Notes: a model not told the origin generated them from the letters alone. DNA of 35,679 bases from a virus (IMGVR_UViG_3300037264_005911:1-35679); one strand, 5' to 3'. Positions 6,697-27,495 are shown, counted from the stretch's first letter. Made by a program: numbers and translations.

Positions 6697-7212
6697 TTAT
6701 GCTAAGGTTACGCGTAAATTGACAACCCATGCATCATTGAGAATGCGAGGTACTTCAGCAAATTTATAACCAACTGAAGCATTCAATGCCAAAGGTCCAT
6801 CATATATTGGTGGGCGATAGATGAAGCTTGCGGAGAATCCGTCTTGTTCAACGGCAGCAATAGCTTCCATACCAACGCAGAAAATATTAAATACATTAGC
6901 GCCAAGTGCAGATGCATTTGGAGTTACGGATCCGATAGATGATATTAAGAAACGTAAGTTTCCAATAGCACCCCATTCAGAACGCAATGCATTCATAGGT
7001 GATGGATATTGGTTCTTTTGCAAGAAGCCTTGAACGTTATCCATATCACCAACTAATTGTGTTGAACATAATGCAAAGTATGCATCACGGACGGGAGCTG
7101 TACCGAATTTGTTTTCGCCTTCGATGTTATCCAATATTGTATATGCATTATTAGACAACAAGGTACGAACAACGGTATCAACGTCTGCGCGCGTCAATTC
7201 TGTAGGGTTATC
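6697..7212 (-). CDS. Capsid gene exon 4 (171 codons plus stop)
   Basis: Encodes DNPTELTRAD to the C terminus NLRVTLA. It appears as an independent ORF only because an in-frame TTG overlaps the intron 3 end. No ribosome binding site precedes it. Confidence 0.9.
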   Translation of the reverse strand, partial: DNPTELTRADVDTVVRTLLSNNAYTILDNIEGENKFGTAPVRDAYFALCSTQLVGDMDNVQGFLQKNQYPSPMNALRSEWGAIGNLRFLISSIGSVTPNASALGANVFNIFCVGMEAIAAVEQDGFSASFIYRPPIYDGPLALNASVGYKFAEVPRILNDAWVVNLRVTLA

Positions 7213-8812
7213 CAAATACTATTACTTCTTGACTTAAATGGGCTCATTTAAGCGGGTAGTCATTTCTGCTACCTCTCATACTTATCGCATGAGACTCGAC
7301 TATCACATCCCATTTCTGGGTCTCTGGGGTTAGTCTGTCAGGCTGCACATCATCAAGATTGCTTGCCCCTTGTTGCCGGTTAGCTACATGCCACTTCGGG
7401 TTTCAAGTCAATTACCAAAGATTTTAAAACGGCAAAAACCCTAATTTATCATACCGTTTAGGCCGCCGACGGCATTGATGAACCCAGCAGTTCCAGCAAG
7501 CATGTTACGCATGAGCTCATCCTCTGTTTGACGTAAGCTCACTCCCAAGCGTGCTGCTGCTTCATTTAATACGGGGTCCTGATTCTGAAGCGTCACCTGT
7601 TCATTCAATTGAATGTATTGCCCGTAAAACCCTATCTGAGCGTCTATATCCACGCTGCTAAGAGTTACCGACGGTGGCGTTACGCCTGTATTTCCAAGCG
7701 GTACTAATGCAGTTGGTAATGGGTTGTAACGTCTCATTCTCAAGATACGTCCACCATTACGCGGCATGCGTTTTAACATGGCAGGTATTTTGTGAATCAT
7801 ATTCAATCTGTTACTTTTATGACCTATTTCTAGGCGGGGATTTTCTCTACTTATCCCTCACTGTGTTTCCACAATGTTCAGAGCACCGCATCTTCTTTTA
7901 AAGAAGTTTCCTCGCTTGCTACGTTCACGCTGCACGGTTGTCCTGCTTGCGCCTTGTTGTCTTCAGCTTTACCTGGCAAGAGTTTCAAGTCCATCAGAGG
8001 AAATTTAAAGTGCCCAATATTATCTAGGCACTGGTACGGAAAGCAGCTTGTAGTCAAACGACTGCTGAACCATTCTATTACTTTCAGGAAGTTATCCTTA
8101 CTGACCATTTCTGGCGGGGAAACCTCTTCGGATCTCCCTCTCATAGTTTACTATGAGATTAGACTATCGCATGCGCTCTCGCGCCCCGGAGACTTAGTCG
8201 TTGCGGCTGCTTTAACACAATTGAGCTTTCGCATTTTTTGATACGACTGCTCTCTGTATTCTACCTCGCTATCACTCAATCTATTATTTCTATATCCATA
8301 AAATTTATATTCTGCTTTTTTACAATAACTCAACAAATGTTCTGCACGATTTTTTTTATTCTGTAAATAAAGCATTATACCTTCTAGAAATCTAATAAGA
8401 TCAGGTCTATTAGTTATTGTCCATTCATATAATGGCTGACTATTAGGCCGCGATATTCGAGGGCCAGCTATTTTTATACGTCCCAGTTTAAGTTCACGTT
8501 GAATATAATTGATAGCGCCATCTTGTATCATGGCAATTTTAACTAAGGGAAGATAATAATTTCCCGTTGCTCGCATGTATCTAGCTATCATAAAACATCC
8601 ATCCGAATCCATAATTGCTGCGGCATATATCCATGGCTGCGCTTGCCTCTGGTTATCTTGCATAAATATCTCCTATTATACCAATTTGTTGTACTGGTAT
8701 AAGTATAACAGAGATTTAAATTTATGTTTAGACTTTCCAAGTAATCACTCCAGGTTTAACGCGCCCATATTCATTTAGGCGCAGGGAGCAGACTTGTAGT
8801 TGTAATAGGCAT
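6697..8812 (-). CDS. Major capsid protein, N4-gp56 family, four exons split by three group I introns
   Basis: Exons 8812-8777, 8070-8026, 7803-7453 and 7212-6697 join to a 315-aa protein. The junctions restore ...LLPAP/VQQSFDYKLLSVPVP/NMIHKIP... and ...GGLNG/DNPTELTRAD..., continuous sequence of the N4-gp56 capsid type as I remember it. Family-like stretches are GRILRMRRYNPLP, LNEQVTLQNQDPVLNEAA, GTAPVRDAYFALCSTQLV, RFLISSIGSV and NDAWVVNLRVTLA. All introns lie between codons. The start ATG follows a perfect AGGAGG (8818-8823) by five bases. Without splicing, exon 1 ends at a TGA right after 13 codons, so capsid synthesis requires splicing. The scaffold and endolysin genes lie upstream and two structural paralogues downstream. 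Confidence 0.93.
7213..7452 (-). ncRNA. Group I intron 3 of capsid gene (240 nt, no ORF)
   Basis: P1: exon AAACGGU pairs with GCCGUUU at 7433-7427, with U.G at the splice site and a 19-base loop. P7: GACTA (7335-7331) in CAGACTAA pairs with TAGTC (7302-7298) in GTGATAGTCG. A P9 stem CTCAT...ATGAG follows, as in intron 1. The intron ends ...TATTTG, then exon GATAACCC. It contains in-frame stops in the exon frame (ATAAATTAG), so translation cannot pass through it. Confidence 0.87.
7453..7803 (-). CDS. Capsid gene exon 3 (117 codons)
   Basis: Encodes the NMIHKIP to GGLNG part of the capsid protein. An in-frame TTG just before it makes it look like a separate 121-aa ORF, but there is no ribosome binding site, and the ORF's last three codons and its stop belong to intron 3. 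Confidence 0.9.
7804..8025 (-). ncRNA. Group I intron 2 of capsid gene (222 nt, no ORF)
   Basis: P1: exon AGUGCCU pairs with GGGCACU at 8015-8009, with U.G at the splice site. The core segment GTGCAGCGTGAACGTAGCAAG lines up with the GTGCAGC...GACTAA segment of intron 3, and an AGCA/TGCT pair is a candidate for P7, which is not the usual GACTA/TAGTC. Near the 3' end, GGGAT...ATCCC and CCTAGAAATAGG stems resemble intron 1. The terminal G is present (GATTG/AATATG). The splice sites are well supported by the restored protein; the P7 assignment is tentative. Confidence 0.82.
8026..8070 (-). CDS. Capsid gene exon 2 (15 codons)
   Basis: Encodes VQQSFDYKLLSVPVP, held between two group I introns. It ends in AGTGCCT, which pairs with intron 2. 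At 45 nt it is too short to be found by ordinary gene calling. Confidence 0.88.
8071..8776 (-). ncRNA. Group I intron 1 of capsid gene (706 nt), encodes a LAGLIDADG endonuclease
   Basis: P1: exon GCGCCU pairs with GGGCGC at 8766-8761, with the U.G wobble at the splice site. P7: GACTA (8199-8195) in the R-like segment CAACGACTAA pairs with TAGTC (8166-8162) in GCGATAGTCT. Between them is a GCGC-GAGA-GCGC hairpin, consistent with P8 and a GNRA loop. P9: CTCATAG-TAAA-CTATGAG follows directly. The intron ends ...AGAATG, giving a terminal G. The endonuclease ORF occupies most of the 5' half and reads into the core. P4-P6 were not drawn in full, so the subgroup is unassigned. Confidence 0.88.
8151..8663 (-). 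CDS. LAGLIDADG homing endonuclease encoded in intron 1, 170 aa
   Basis: Residues about 11-24 (WIYAAAIMDSDGCFMI) are a LAGLIDADG helix with the acidic residue (DSDG) that binds the catalytic metal in this family. No clear second motif was seen, so it probably acts as a homodimer, as single-motif family members do. Its expected target is the intronless capsid gene at the exon 1/exon 2 junction, which would spread the intron. AGGAGATATTT precedes the ATG. The last 25 or so codons overlap the intron's core: P7, P8 and the left arm of P9. The same bases thus serve protein and ribozyme. Confidence 0.88.
   Translation of the reverse strand: MQDNQRQAQPWIYAAAIMDSDGCFMIARYMRATGNYYLPLVKIAMIQDGAINYIQRELKLGRIKIAGPRISRPNSQPLYEWTITNRPDLIRFLEGIMLYLQNKKNRAEHLLSYCKKAEYKFYGYRNNRLSDSEVEYREQSYQKMRKLNCVKAAATTKSPGRESACDSLIS
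8777..8812 (-). CDS. Capsid gene exon 1 (12 codons)
   Basis: Encodes MPITTTSLLPAP. It ends in GCGCCT; the last U forms the U.G pair of the intron 1 P1 helix. Only 36 nt long. Confidence 0.88.
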
Positions 8813-24936: not shown

Positions 24937-25078
24937 CAAAGAATGTTTAATCGGGATAATGCGATTGTCATGCATCGTGCCAAAGAAATATCATCGTAAA
25001 GCGCAAGCTCTATTAGACAAAGGTAAAACCGCACGAGAAGTTGAACGCTATTTCAAAAAGAGGGGTGTATGTCCATAA
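24893..25078 (+). CDS. Small helix-rich protein just before TerL, up to 61 aa
   Basis: The start is uncertain: the frame opens at an ATG inside the previous gene with no ribosome binding site, and an alternative ATG at 24959 (MRLSCIVPKKYHRKAQ) would give 39 aa. The C-terminal half (HRKAQALLDKGKTAREVERY, then FKKRGV) resembles one helix-turn-helix unit. It overlaps the terminase start by 10 nt, so it probably couples translation of TerL. It might be a minimal TerS or a regulator; neither is shown. Confidence 0.5.
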   Translation: MKNLKISPQVTIINSKECLIGIMRLSCIVPKKYHRKAQALLDKGKTAREVERYFKKRGVCP

Positions 25079-27495
25079 TCTATCTTGATAAGTTCAATCC
25101 CCGTCCCTATCAAATACCTTTATGTAAAGCATTAGAAGAGCAGGGCTATAAACGCCTTGTTGCCATATGGCCGAGGCGTTGTTTATCGGGTAAAACGCAT
25201 ATAACTATGGCCGATGGTTCCTTTAAACTTTTAAATGAACTGAAAATTGGCGATAAAATACTTTCATGGGACGGTACAAAATTCATAGAAGATACTATTA
25301 AACATATATGGTCAACAGGAATAAAACCAACCAAAATTATTTCATCTCCTTGCTTTGTTCCACTTATTGCTTCTGAAAACCATCAATTCGCAAACACTAC
25401 CTGTACAGGAACAATCGTTCATTGGGACGAATTGGGATCTATAAGAAAATATCGTCGAATTTTACAATATTCTGGAATCAAACATGGTAATGTAGAAAAC
25501 ATAAATCTAGCTTATTTTTGGGGATATATGCTCGCTGATGGATATGTATCAGGATATCAACAACCAAAATTTACCAATACCAACAAAGAAATATTAGATC
25601 ATGTTGACTATCTCGCCCAGGCATTATTTCATGTTACTGTTATATGGAGAAAAAAAGGAAATGCTTACGATTTGGGATTTTCTAATGGAACAAGGGGCGG
25701 TGGAGAAACAGAAAATCCAATTAAGGAACTATTTCAAGCTGAAAGAGTTGCAATACAAAAATGGAAGCGCAGGCTACCAAAAAGCATATGGGAATTCAAT
25801 GAGCAGTCGGTATTAGCATTTTTTGCTGCTCTTATTTCTGCTGACGGCAATATATATAGTCATAAAGAAGGATTTGTCGCTAAAGATACGAAACATGTTG
25901 TTCCTGCTGCCGCTGAAATAACATTAAGTTGCGGCTTAAATGATAATTATGCTTGGGATATATATTGGTTATTAAGAAAAATCAGTATTATGCCACAAAT
26001 ACCCTATAAAGAAAAAACCTCTAACTGGAAAATTAAAATTGCTAAACATGATTCCGTAAAAAAACTTCTTACTTATAAAGTTTATGGAAAAGAAGAAGTG
26101 CAACGAAAAGCACTTAATTTATGTTGCCAAAAAACAAAGGTTCGTGAAATATTTAATGGTTGCTATCGTGGCGGATTTACCATAGAGAATGGTGCCGATG
26201 AAGAATTGTTCGATATAGAAACAAACATAAATCATAACTTTATAGCTAATGGGTACGTAGTACATAATAGCGGGAAAGATGTTTGCGCATTTAATCTCAT
26301 GATACGAGCCGCCTTACGTCGCATAGGAGTTTATTACTATATATTTCCTACCTACTCTCAAGCACGGAAAGTTATTTGGGATAGTATTACTATAGAGGGA
26401 GAACGATTTCTGAATTACATTCCCAAAGAATTGATAGTTAACACTAATACTACTGAAATGAAAATCAATCTCATTAATGGATCACTGATACAACTTATAG
26501 GTTCAGATCATATCGATGCTTTGGTCGGAACAAACCCAATTGGGATTGTATTTTCAGAATATGCATTACAAGATCCAAGAGCATATCAATTCCTGAGACC
26601 AATATTACTTGCAAACGATGGCTGGGCAATGTTTATCAGCACTCCAAGAGGAAAATCTCATCTGTGGGAACTTTATAACGTTACGCTCAAGTCTTCTGAG
26701 TGGTTTTGCTCAAAGTTGTCCGTCGAAGATACAAAGCATATTCCCTTAGAATCAATACAAAAAGAAATAGATGAGGGGTTGATCTCGGAAGATCTTGTCC
26801 AACAAGAATACTTTTGCAGTTTTGAAATGGGAGTCGAGGGTGCTTATTATACAAAATACATAGATAAAATGCGCCTCAAAGGACAGATTGGACAGGTGCC
26901 TTATGAGCCAAACTTTAAAGTTAATACTGCATGGGATTTGGGAGTTCGAGATAGTACATGCATCATATTTTTCCAAATGATTGGACAAACAATCCGCATC
27001 ATTGATTATTATGAAAAAAACAAAGAAGGCCTAGAACACTATGTTCAAGTATTAGCTCAAAAAGGCTATGTCTACGGAAAACATATTGCTCCCCATGACA
27101 TACGTGTTAGGGAGTTTGGTTCTGGCATGACTCGCTGGGAAAAAGCCCGACAATTGGGAATAACATTTACTATTGCCCCTGACGTTTCTATCGTAGACGG
27201 TATTGAAGCCGTACGTTCGACTTTAGGAAAAGTTTGGCTTGATGAATTTCTTGCAGCTAAATTAATTAAAGCGCTAGAAAACTATCGACAAGAATATGAT
27301 CCTAAAAAAAGAATATATAAACCATTCCCTCTTCATAATGAATTTTCTCACGGTTCTGATGCAATGAGAATGTTGTGCGTAAGCCTACCCAAGATTCGCG
27401 AAGGATCTTCTCCCGAAGCACTTGAAAAGCGCTACAAAGAAGCCATGTACGGCGACGATCTACCGGGATTCTTTAATAGCAGCAACAACCATTAA
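25069..27495 (+). CDS. Terminase large subunit with an intein in its Walker A motif, 808 aa precursor
   Basis: TerL packages DNA into the head: an ATPase motor plus a nuclease. N-extein: residues 1-37, ending LVAIWPRR. Intein: residues 38-400. C-extein: 401-808, starting SGKDVCAFN. Splicing restores WPRRSGKD, the Walker A loop, giving a 445-aa TerL, a normal length. Walker B and the catalytic Glu are in GIVFSEYA (about residue 495). The nuclease acidic residues are in TAWDLGVRDS (about 621) and near the end in SHGSDAMRML. ATPase activity is impossible before splicing because the P-loop is split. It overlaps the previous gene by 10 nt. Confidence 0.93.
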   Translation: MSIIYLDKFNPRPYQIPLCKALEEQGYKRLVAIWPRRCLSGKTHITMADGSFKLLNELKIGDKILSWDGTKFIEDTIKHIWSTGIKPTKIISSPCFVPLIASENHQFANTTCTGTIVHWDELGSIRKYRRILQYSGIKHGNVENINLAYFWGYMLADGYVSGYQQPKFTNTNKEILDHVDYLAQALFHVTVIWRKKGNAYDLGFSNGTRGGGETENPIKELFQAERVAIQKWKRRLPKSIWEFNEQSVLAFFAALISADGNIYSHKEGFVAKDTKHVVPAAAEITLSCGLNDNYAWDIYWLLRKISIMPQIPYKEKTSNWKIKIAKHDSVKKLLTYKVYGKEEVQRKALNLCCQKTKVREIFNGCYRGGFTIENGADEELFDIETNINHNFIANGYVVHNSGKDVCAFNLMIRAALRRIGVYYYIFPTYSQARKVIWDSITIEGERFLNYIPKELIVNTNTTEMKINLINGSLIQLIGSDHIDALVGTNPIGIVFSEYALQDPRAYQFLRPILLANDGWAMFISTPRGKSHLWELYNVTLKSSEWFCSKLSVEDTKHIPLESIQKEIDEGLISEDLVQQEYFCSFEMGVEGAYYTKYIDKMRLKGQIGQVPYEPNFKVNTAWDLGVRDSTCIIFFQMIGQTIRIIDYYEKNKEGLEHYVQVLAQKGYVYGKHIAPHDIRVREFGSGMTRWEKARQLGITFTIAPDVSIVDGIEAVRSTLGKVWLDEFLAAKLIKALENYRQEYDPKKRIYKPFPLHNEFSHGSDAMRMLCVSLPKIREGSSPEALEKRYKEAMYGDDLPGFFNSSNNH
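25180..26268 (+). mobile_element. Intein with LAGLIDADG homing endonuclease in TerL, 363 aa
   Basis: First residue Cys (CLSGKTHITMADGSFKLL, block A). Block B has SENHQF with the conserved His. Two LAGLIDADG helices follow: WGYMLADGYV (precursor residues about 151-160) and AALISADGNI (about 250-260). Block F is FDIETNINHNFIANG, and block G is YVVHN, followed by Ser as the first C-extein residue. All splicing residues (C1, block B His, penultimate His, terminal Asn, +1 Ser) are present, so it should be active. The start (CLSGKT) imitates the P-loop it interrupts. Confidence 0.92.

Follow-up and report, generated by a model that had tools for sequence, protein, structure and literature searches.

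The window, by which we mean the whole 35,679-nucleotide (nt) stretch of DNA analysed (virus record IMGVR_UViG_3300037264_005911:1-35679), carries at 6697-8812, on the minus strand, a major capsid gene that cannot be read through as it stands. Its frame opens with an ATG at 8812 behind a strong Shine-Dalgarno sequence (AAGGAGG) and, left unspliced, stops after 13 codons (MPITTTSLLPAPK*), as a first-pass annotation of this DNA had pointed out. Is such a gene broken, divided or spliced? The last of these, with three group I introns inside a functional major capsid gene of the N4-gp56 type, is in our estimate correct with a probability of about 0.95. In relatives, the same gene carries at codon 88 much shorter inserts, which are probably removed by the ribozyme core of a neighbouring intron. 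The predicted structure of the gene in the window is as follows (ORF, open reading frame; aa, amino acids).

8812-8777, minus strand: capsid exon 1, 36 nt (MPITTTSLLPAP), with AAGGAGG upstream; uninterrupted here in 55 intronless relatives
8776-8071, minus strand: group I intron 1, 706 nt, between codons 12 and 13
8151-8663, minus strand: intron 1 ORF, 170 aa, LAGLIDADG-like (YAAAIMDSDGCFMI), preceded by a Shine-Dalgarno sequence of its own and overlapping P6-P8 of the intron core in its 3' part
8070-8026, minus strand: capsid exon 2, a 45-nt micro-exon of 15 codons (VQQSFDYKLLSVPVP)
8025-7804, minus strand: group I intron 2, 222 nt, between codons 27 and 28
7803-7453, minus strand: capsid exon 3, 351 nt; matches phrog_1357 (major head protein), E 2e-11
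7452-7213, minus strand: group I intron 3, 240 nt, between codons 144 and 145
7212-6697, minus strand: capsid exon 4, 516 nt including the stop; matches phrog_1357, E 3e-10; 85% identity in relatives
Predicted exon junctions of the joined exons, minus strand, as DNA: CCTGCGCCT-GTTCAGCAG, CAGTGCCT-AATATGATT, AACGGT-GATAACCC
Predicted junction peptides of the joined exons, minus strand: PAP-VQQ, VPVP-NMIH, LNG-DNP

The interrupted gene and its intact relatives

Joined in phase 0, the four exons give a 948-nt frame of 315 aa, which matches the N4-gp56 major capsid model TIGR04387 from end to end (136.6 bits against a cut-off of 60, E 1.1e-39, profile positions 1-321 of 324). Exons 3 and 4 taken singly match only parts of the head-protein family. 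Among 27 matching phage records, 24 cover at least 80% of the spliced protein in one place. The four-exon, 315-aa capsid protein proposed by the first-pass annotation is thus borne out by the profile and, as described below, by relatives in which the frame is continuous.

A set of 80 relatives was retrieved from IMG/VR with exon 4 as the query (73-86% identical over exon 4), and further relatives were found with two more protein queries and one DNA pattern; the sample is biased in that the queries lie within exon 4 and one scan selected the codon-88 guide. Genes were aligned with a purpose-written spliced aligner, first against L022, a relative without introns, and afterwards against a profile of such relatives. 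Counts are given over 163 distinct genes, each covered across at least 300 codons, and about a dozen truncated or divergent loci, still noisy in spliced alignment, were excluded. One aligner setting, which penalised introns lightly and required them to be at least 140 nt long, was rejected for producing spurious chains of small introns inside ORF-bearing introns; the replacement version permits short inserts, and with it the mini-introns described below became visible.

The spliced alignment based on L022 returned the identical three introns in the window, reproducing the micro-exons of 36 and 45 nt and the joins between codons that had been predicted. With the splice-site bonuses switched off, the three intron lengths were unchanged and the boundaries shifted by 1 nt (a synonymous base). 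The gene is intronless in 55 of the 163 distinct genes, with frames continuous through codons 12/13, 27/28 and 144/145. All three junctions are thus supported by comparison, since these 55 relatives carry the gene as one uninterrupted frame. Relatives carry homologues of all three introns at the corresponding sites: intron 1 is 71% identical to that of L191, intron 2 is 78% identical to that of L036, and intron 3 is 87% identical over 194 nt to that of L057. The same 45-nt exon also lies between introns 12 and 27 in L062, L063 and L066. Outside the core, the three window introns share little sequence with one another.

The relatives indicate that the capsid gene is an intron hot spot. Across the 163 genes there are 31 insertion sites; no gene has more than five full introns, and the shortest internal exon is 22 nt long. 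P1, the helix formed by an intron's internal guide and the end of the upstream exon, reaches at least 5 base pairs (bp) in 195 of the 200 introns called. All called introns end in G and follow a 5' exon ending in U, two features that are not independent evidence since the aligner rewards both. This phage group, widespread and uncultured, puts up with as many as six breaks in the gene that encodes its principal structural protein. As the Rfam model misses these introns (see below) and ordinary gene calling would split the gene, introns in phages are probably undercounted in surveys, and capsid genes listed there as broken.

Group I features of the three window introns

Each exon end fits a guide in the following intron exactly. 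P1 is GCGCCU/GGGCGC in intron 1, GUGCCU/GGGCAC in intron 2 and AAACGGU/GCCGUUU in intron 3, in every case 6-7 bp long and ending in U.G, and all three introns terminate in G; the perfect P1 helices and terminal G residues of the first-pass annotation were thus found again, with intron lengths that do not depend on the aligner's reward. The 7-pair count of our P1 scorer is reached by only 4.1% of the T sites in the window, so that three such helices together are improbable by chance. The same fit bears on the idea that the four pieces are translated separately, with no splicing. Exons 3 and 4 do sit in open frames (121 and 172 aa) that have potential start codons; against this, exons of 12 and 15 codons have no plausible independent use, the 55 intronless relatives encode one continuous protein, and the guides match the exon ends. 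We regard a split capsid as scarcely credible.

The elements of a group I core can be read in all three introns: P3 CCUGGAG/CUCCGGG, P7 GACUA/UAGUC and P8 GCGC/GCGC in intron 1; P3 UUUCCUC/GAGGAAA and a variant P7, GUAGCA/UGCUC, in intron 2; and P3 UCUUUGG/CCAGAGA, P7 GACUA/UAGUC and P8 CCC/GGG in intron 3. The GACTA/TAGTC pairs noted earlier in introns 1 and 3 are present. A covariance model was built from the aligned cores of 27 short introns at sites other than 12, 27 and 144, with P3, P4, P5, P6 and P8 in the consensus and P7 added as a pseudoknot. Over the 28 pairs of this alignment, including P7, 99.2% of cells are paired, compared with 40-46% when the strands are slid. Double changes occur in 22 of the 28 pairs, amounting to 150 double-change cells against 38 in shuffles, and P3, P4, P5, P6, P7 and P8 of the training introns all show covariation. 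In the window, the model matches exactly three places, one per proposed intron, with cores at 7427-7297 in intron 3 (99.1 bits, E 1e-20) and 8009-7880 in intron 2 (84.3 bits, E 3e-17); the match in intron 1 is considered below.

A covarying core is also difficult to reconcile with a decaying pseudogene whose inserts are random debris. Stops occur throughout the unspliced gene, as such decay would give. The inserts, however, are group I introns, the exons are 86% identical to an intact relative with zero frame errors across 315 codons, and no second capsid gene was found in the window record. Decay of this kind has next to no probability.

Several points weigh against the reading of a functional gene with three group I introns. 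A U at the 5' site and a G at the 3' site each earn a bonus in the aligner, so both rules are partly built in, and without the bonus the boundaries shift by one base. P10, the pairing of guide-side bases with the 3' exon, is clear only in intron 2 (5 bp, AAUAU/AUAUU) and extends over about 2 bp in introns 1 and 3; some group I introns lack P10. The custom model's match in intron 1 (8309-8161) is weak, at 21.7 bits and E 0.0072, because the 170-aa ORF lies within the core, which is thus recognised fully in introns 2 and 3 and partly in intron 1. An Rfam scan of the window and of the capsid region (E <= 10) and a scan of the whole record with RF00028 gave no match. All sequences are metagenomic contigs, and the nearest capsid protein in a phage record is about 26% identical.

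RF00028 finds none of the window's group I introns and just one among those of the eight related loci scanned; the intron of one relative scores 27.6 bits (E 0.0046), under the cut-off of 50. The Rfam miss is a sensitivity failure of that model, and the window introns are small group I introns of a kind beyond its reach. The first-pass annotation had named a covariance search with Rfam Intron_gpI among its checks, and the lack of a core in all three introns as a refutation. Taken literally, that refutation came about, since the search found none of the three introns, whereas the model built from introns of the same gene found all of them, intron 1 weakly, and their assignment to group I stands.

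Considering these features, the following course of splicing is proposed for the window gene. Each intron would fold into a P3-P8 core, its internal guide pairing with the upstream exon end to form P1 with U.G at the cut. Guanosine would attack after the exon-terminal U, the freed exon end would then attack after the last G of the intron, and three such excisions would leave the single 948-nt reading frame. The sequence features predict splicing by this chemistry, carried out by each intron autonomously, and are consistent with homing.

Core-less inserts at codon 88 in related genes

Inserts of 28-40 nt occur at codon 88 in 62 of the 163 genes, 28 of which were not pattern-selected (for example, L004, L064, L088, L114 and L153). 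These mini-introns begin after UAYGGU and hold GCCRUA, with which it can form P1, and a terminal G is present in 67 of 67 (a count that includes partly covered genes). A full 706-nt intron lies at codon 88 in L167 with the same guide, AGGUGCCGUA. At 28-40 nt, the minis have no catalytic core inside; they are group I-like pairs of splice sites and not self-sufficient introns.

Their guides extend into the next exon. P10 joins the nucleotides immediately upstream of the guide to the start of that exon; it runs over 3 bp in 61 of 61 distinct minis, compared with a mean of 31 and a maximum of 41 under permutation. Each of the four Watson-Crick pairs is represented at the third, synonymous position of codon 89 (C-G 43, T-A 9, G-C 5, A-T 5). 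The pattern used in the scan prescribed the two guide-adjacent bases and left the covarying base of codon 89 free on both sides. On a tree of the flanking gene sequence, the P10 pair type changes at least 13 times, a count that recombination between capsid genes could inflate; branches with good support require at least five of the changes of the commonest pair type.

A full group I intron is the next insertion downstream of 67 of 67 minis, at 97.2 (45), 105.2 (15), 117.2 (6) or 104.0 (1). Conversely, a mini accompanies 45 of 45 introns at 97.2 and 16 of 16 at 105.2. The custom model finds cores in these partner introns, one of them in the 199-nt 97.2 intron of L153, whose mini is 28 nt long. 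Furthermore, the tail of the mini, which follows the guide, pairs with an exon segment ending 7-9 nt before the partner's 5' splice site, against its 8-bp P1. This position holds for all minis of classes 105.2, 117.2 and 104.0 and for 34 of 41 in class 97.2. Tails pair better with their own exons than with permuted ones in class 97.2 (19.4 versus 12.5) and class 105.2 (25.4 versus 19.5), a difference reached in 0 of 5000 permutations in each. A test limited to the first 26 nt of the next exon failed in 105.2 and 117.2 and was discarded; the full exon shows the stem beside the partner P1. Finally, 13 of 13 mini-bearing records (34-40 kilobases) match one capsid gene only, in pieces, so that the genes with minis are not spare copies.

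Taken together, the guides, their covariation, the obligate neighbour and the position of the stem, all of which can be read from the sequences, make it probable that these are natural core-less group I mini-introns (28-40 nt, perhaps also 4-5 nt) that are cut out by the catalytic core of the intron next to them. Two results count against this: in class 117.2, the tail-stem permutation reached the observed pairing in 1500 of 5000 trials (five sequences, too few), and 7 of 41 minis of class 97.2 pair over just 5 bp unbroken. In the order of events that we propose, one core would serve two P1 helices and two splice-site pairs. The mini P1 would dock first, with the mini tail and the partner P1 stacked into a helix where a P2-like element would lie. 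Departure of the 28-40 nt would destroy the tail stem, after which the partner P1 would dock and the partner intron would remove itself.

The same arrangement, a mini P1 and a partner core on one molecule, might instead join exon 88 straight to the partner's 3' exon, with the intervening exon lost inside a single long intron. In Staphylococcus phage Twort, the gene orf142 undergoes exon skipping (PMC10136302). The exon that would be lost in the relatives, however, has a length not divisible by three (26, 50 or 86 nt) in all but one of the four partner classes, and it retains its protein sequence. Moreover, the P10 part of the guide covaries with the first codon of this exon and not with the partner's 3' exon. 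Because of these lengths and of the way in which P10 tracks the first codon, skipping is improbable.

Translational bypassing, in which the ribosome would skip the insert, has slightly less in its favour. As in gene 60 of phage T4, the inserts come after a GGU glycine codon that lies in a hairpin, and stops occur within them. There is no matching landing codon before the resumed frame, however, and all inserts end in G; nor does bypassing predict that the guide covaries with the 3' exon or the tail with the exon beside the partner. The alternative to be taken most seriously concerns the agent. The minis might be excised in trans, by a free ribozyme or a host factor, as engineered group I ribozymes excise short segments in trans (PMC6155759, PMC4094466). 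Against this, an adjacent full intron is strictly present (67/67) and the tail stem lies directly against its P1 in all partner classes, which makes trans excision rather unlikely.

At codon 118, five distinct genes (L047, L057, L059, L062 and L164) have inserts of 4-5 nt ending in G (TACG, TTCG, TACG, TAATG and TATG), always together with intron 144. Within the exon, GCGGAGU is a 7-bp guide for ACUCCGU; it lies against the P1 of intron 144 and ends 7 nt short of that partner's splice site. A P1 of at least 7 bp to codons 119-144 is found in 5 of 131 controls without intron 144 and in 0 of 12 insert-free genes with it. P10 is 3 bp in three of the five genes and 2 bp in two, and no claim is built on it. 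The arrangement resembles that at codon 88 with the guide moved into the exon, though the evidence is weaker because the five genes share the same motif.

Known systems and other features of the locus

The first-pass annotation called three introns in one phage capsid gene, two of them around a 15-codon exon, exceptional, and this overstated their rarity. Twort orf142 has three group I introns and a 23-nt exon, with exon skipping (Landthaler and Shub 1999, as cited in PMC10136302 and PMC11878797). Like the window gene, orf142 is thus a phage gene with three group I introns, two of them around a micro-exon; it is not reported there as a capsid gene, and two of its introns are near-copies (IA2). 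Introns in capsid genes are known from mycobacteriophage LittleE, where splicing in vivo was demonstrated by reverse transcription polymerase chain reaction (PMC3706429), and from lactococcal phage Tuc2009 (as cited in PMC3706429). These resemble the window in having an intron in a phage major capsid gene, but one is described for each, and no micro-exons. The major capsid gene of Faustovirus E12 has 12 introns, of which five are group I by Rfam and seven were called spliceosome-like (PMC6247863); it is likewise a many-intron capsid gene, but that of a virus of amoebae and not of a phage. The DNA polymerase and terminase genes of Bastillevirinae carry up to three group I introns, with one gene alternatively spliced (PMC11878797). 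These too are multi-intron phage genes, though a text search of the accessible part of that paper gave no capsid introns and core-less introns were not seen in it. The kind of gene found in the window is thus already known, whereas the codon-88 system of its relatives would be new.

The closest counterparts of the minis are engineered. In trans-excision-splicing ribozymes and spliceozymes, a group I core removes a core-less internal segment through P1/P10-type pairing (PMC6155759, PMC4094466). In the relatives, by contrast, the substrate would be natural, lie upstream on the same transcript and be held by a stem beside the ribozyme's P1. No natural core-less group I intron was found in the open literature, subscription papers lying mostly outside the search. 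The group III introns of Euglena plastids are degenerate group II introns that have lost catalytic parts and borrow their catalysis. The minis would share this borrowing, with group I chemistry in a phage in place of group II chemistry in a eukaryotic organelle. If the proposal is right, the minis show in nature how a ribozyme can process another intron that depends on it, and they parallel, on a small scale, the transition from self-splicing to a borrowed, shared catalyst. This long-argued step in intron evolution, the loss of catalytic parts and dependence on a shared core, could then be tested in vitro with RNAs of a few hundred nucleotides.

Introns 2 and 3 of the window have no ORF. The product of the intron 1 ORF matches phrog_5046 ('HNH endonuclease') with E 2.4e-9 and, with E 0.13, lies under the cut-off for Pfam LAGLIDADG_1, though a LAGLIDADG motif is readable; its match to I-CvuI is weak (E 0.31). 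A 65% identical ORF is present in the L191 intron. Intron 1 is probably a homing intron, made mobile by this LAGLIDADG-like gene. Its guide, GGGCGC, has a second possible partner in the GUGCCU that ends exon 2 (6 pairs including wobbles). In-frame skipping of the 45-nt exon 2, or cross-splicing, at 8776-8026 is a possible outcome.

A nucleotide search of the capsid region against phage records gave no match. Two genome-assembly matches (Thermotoga and Parachlamydia) might have indicated a host, but they are contigs in metagenome bins and were not trusted. Elsewhere in the window, an ORF of 808 aa for the terminase large subunit lies at 25069-27495 on the plus strand and is interrupted, after about 45 N-terminal residues, by an intein with a LAGLIDADG_3 domain, the intein C-terminal region being at residues 380-401.

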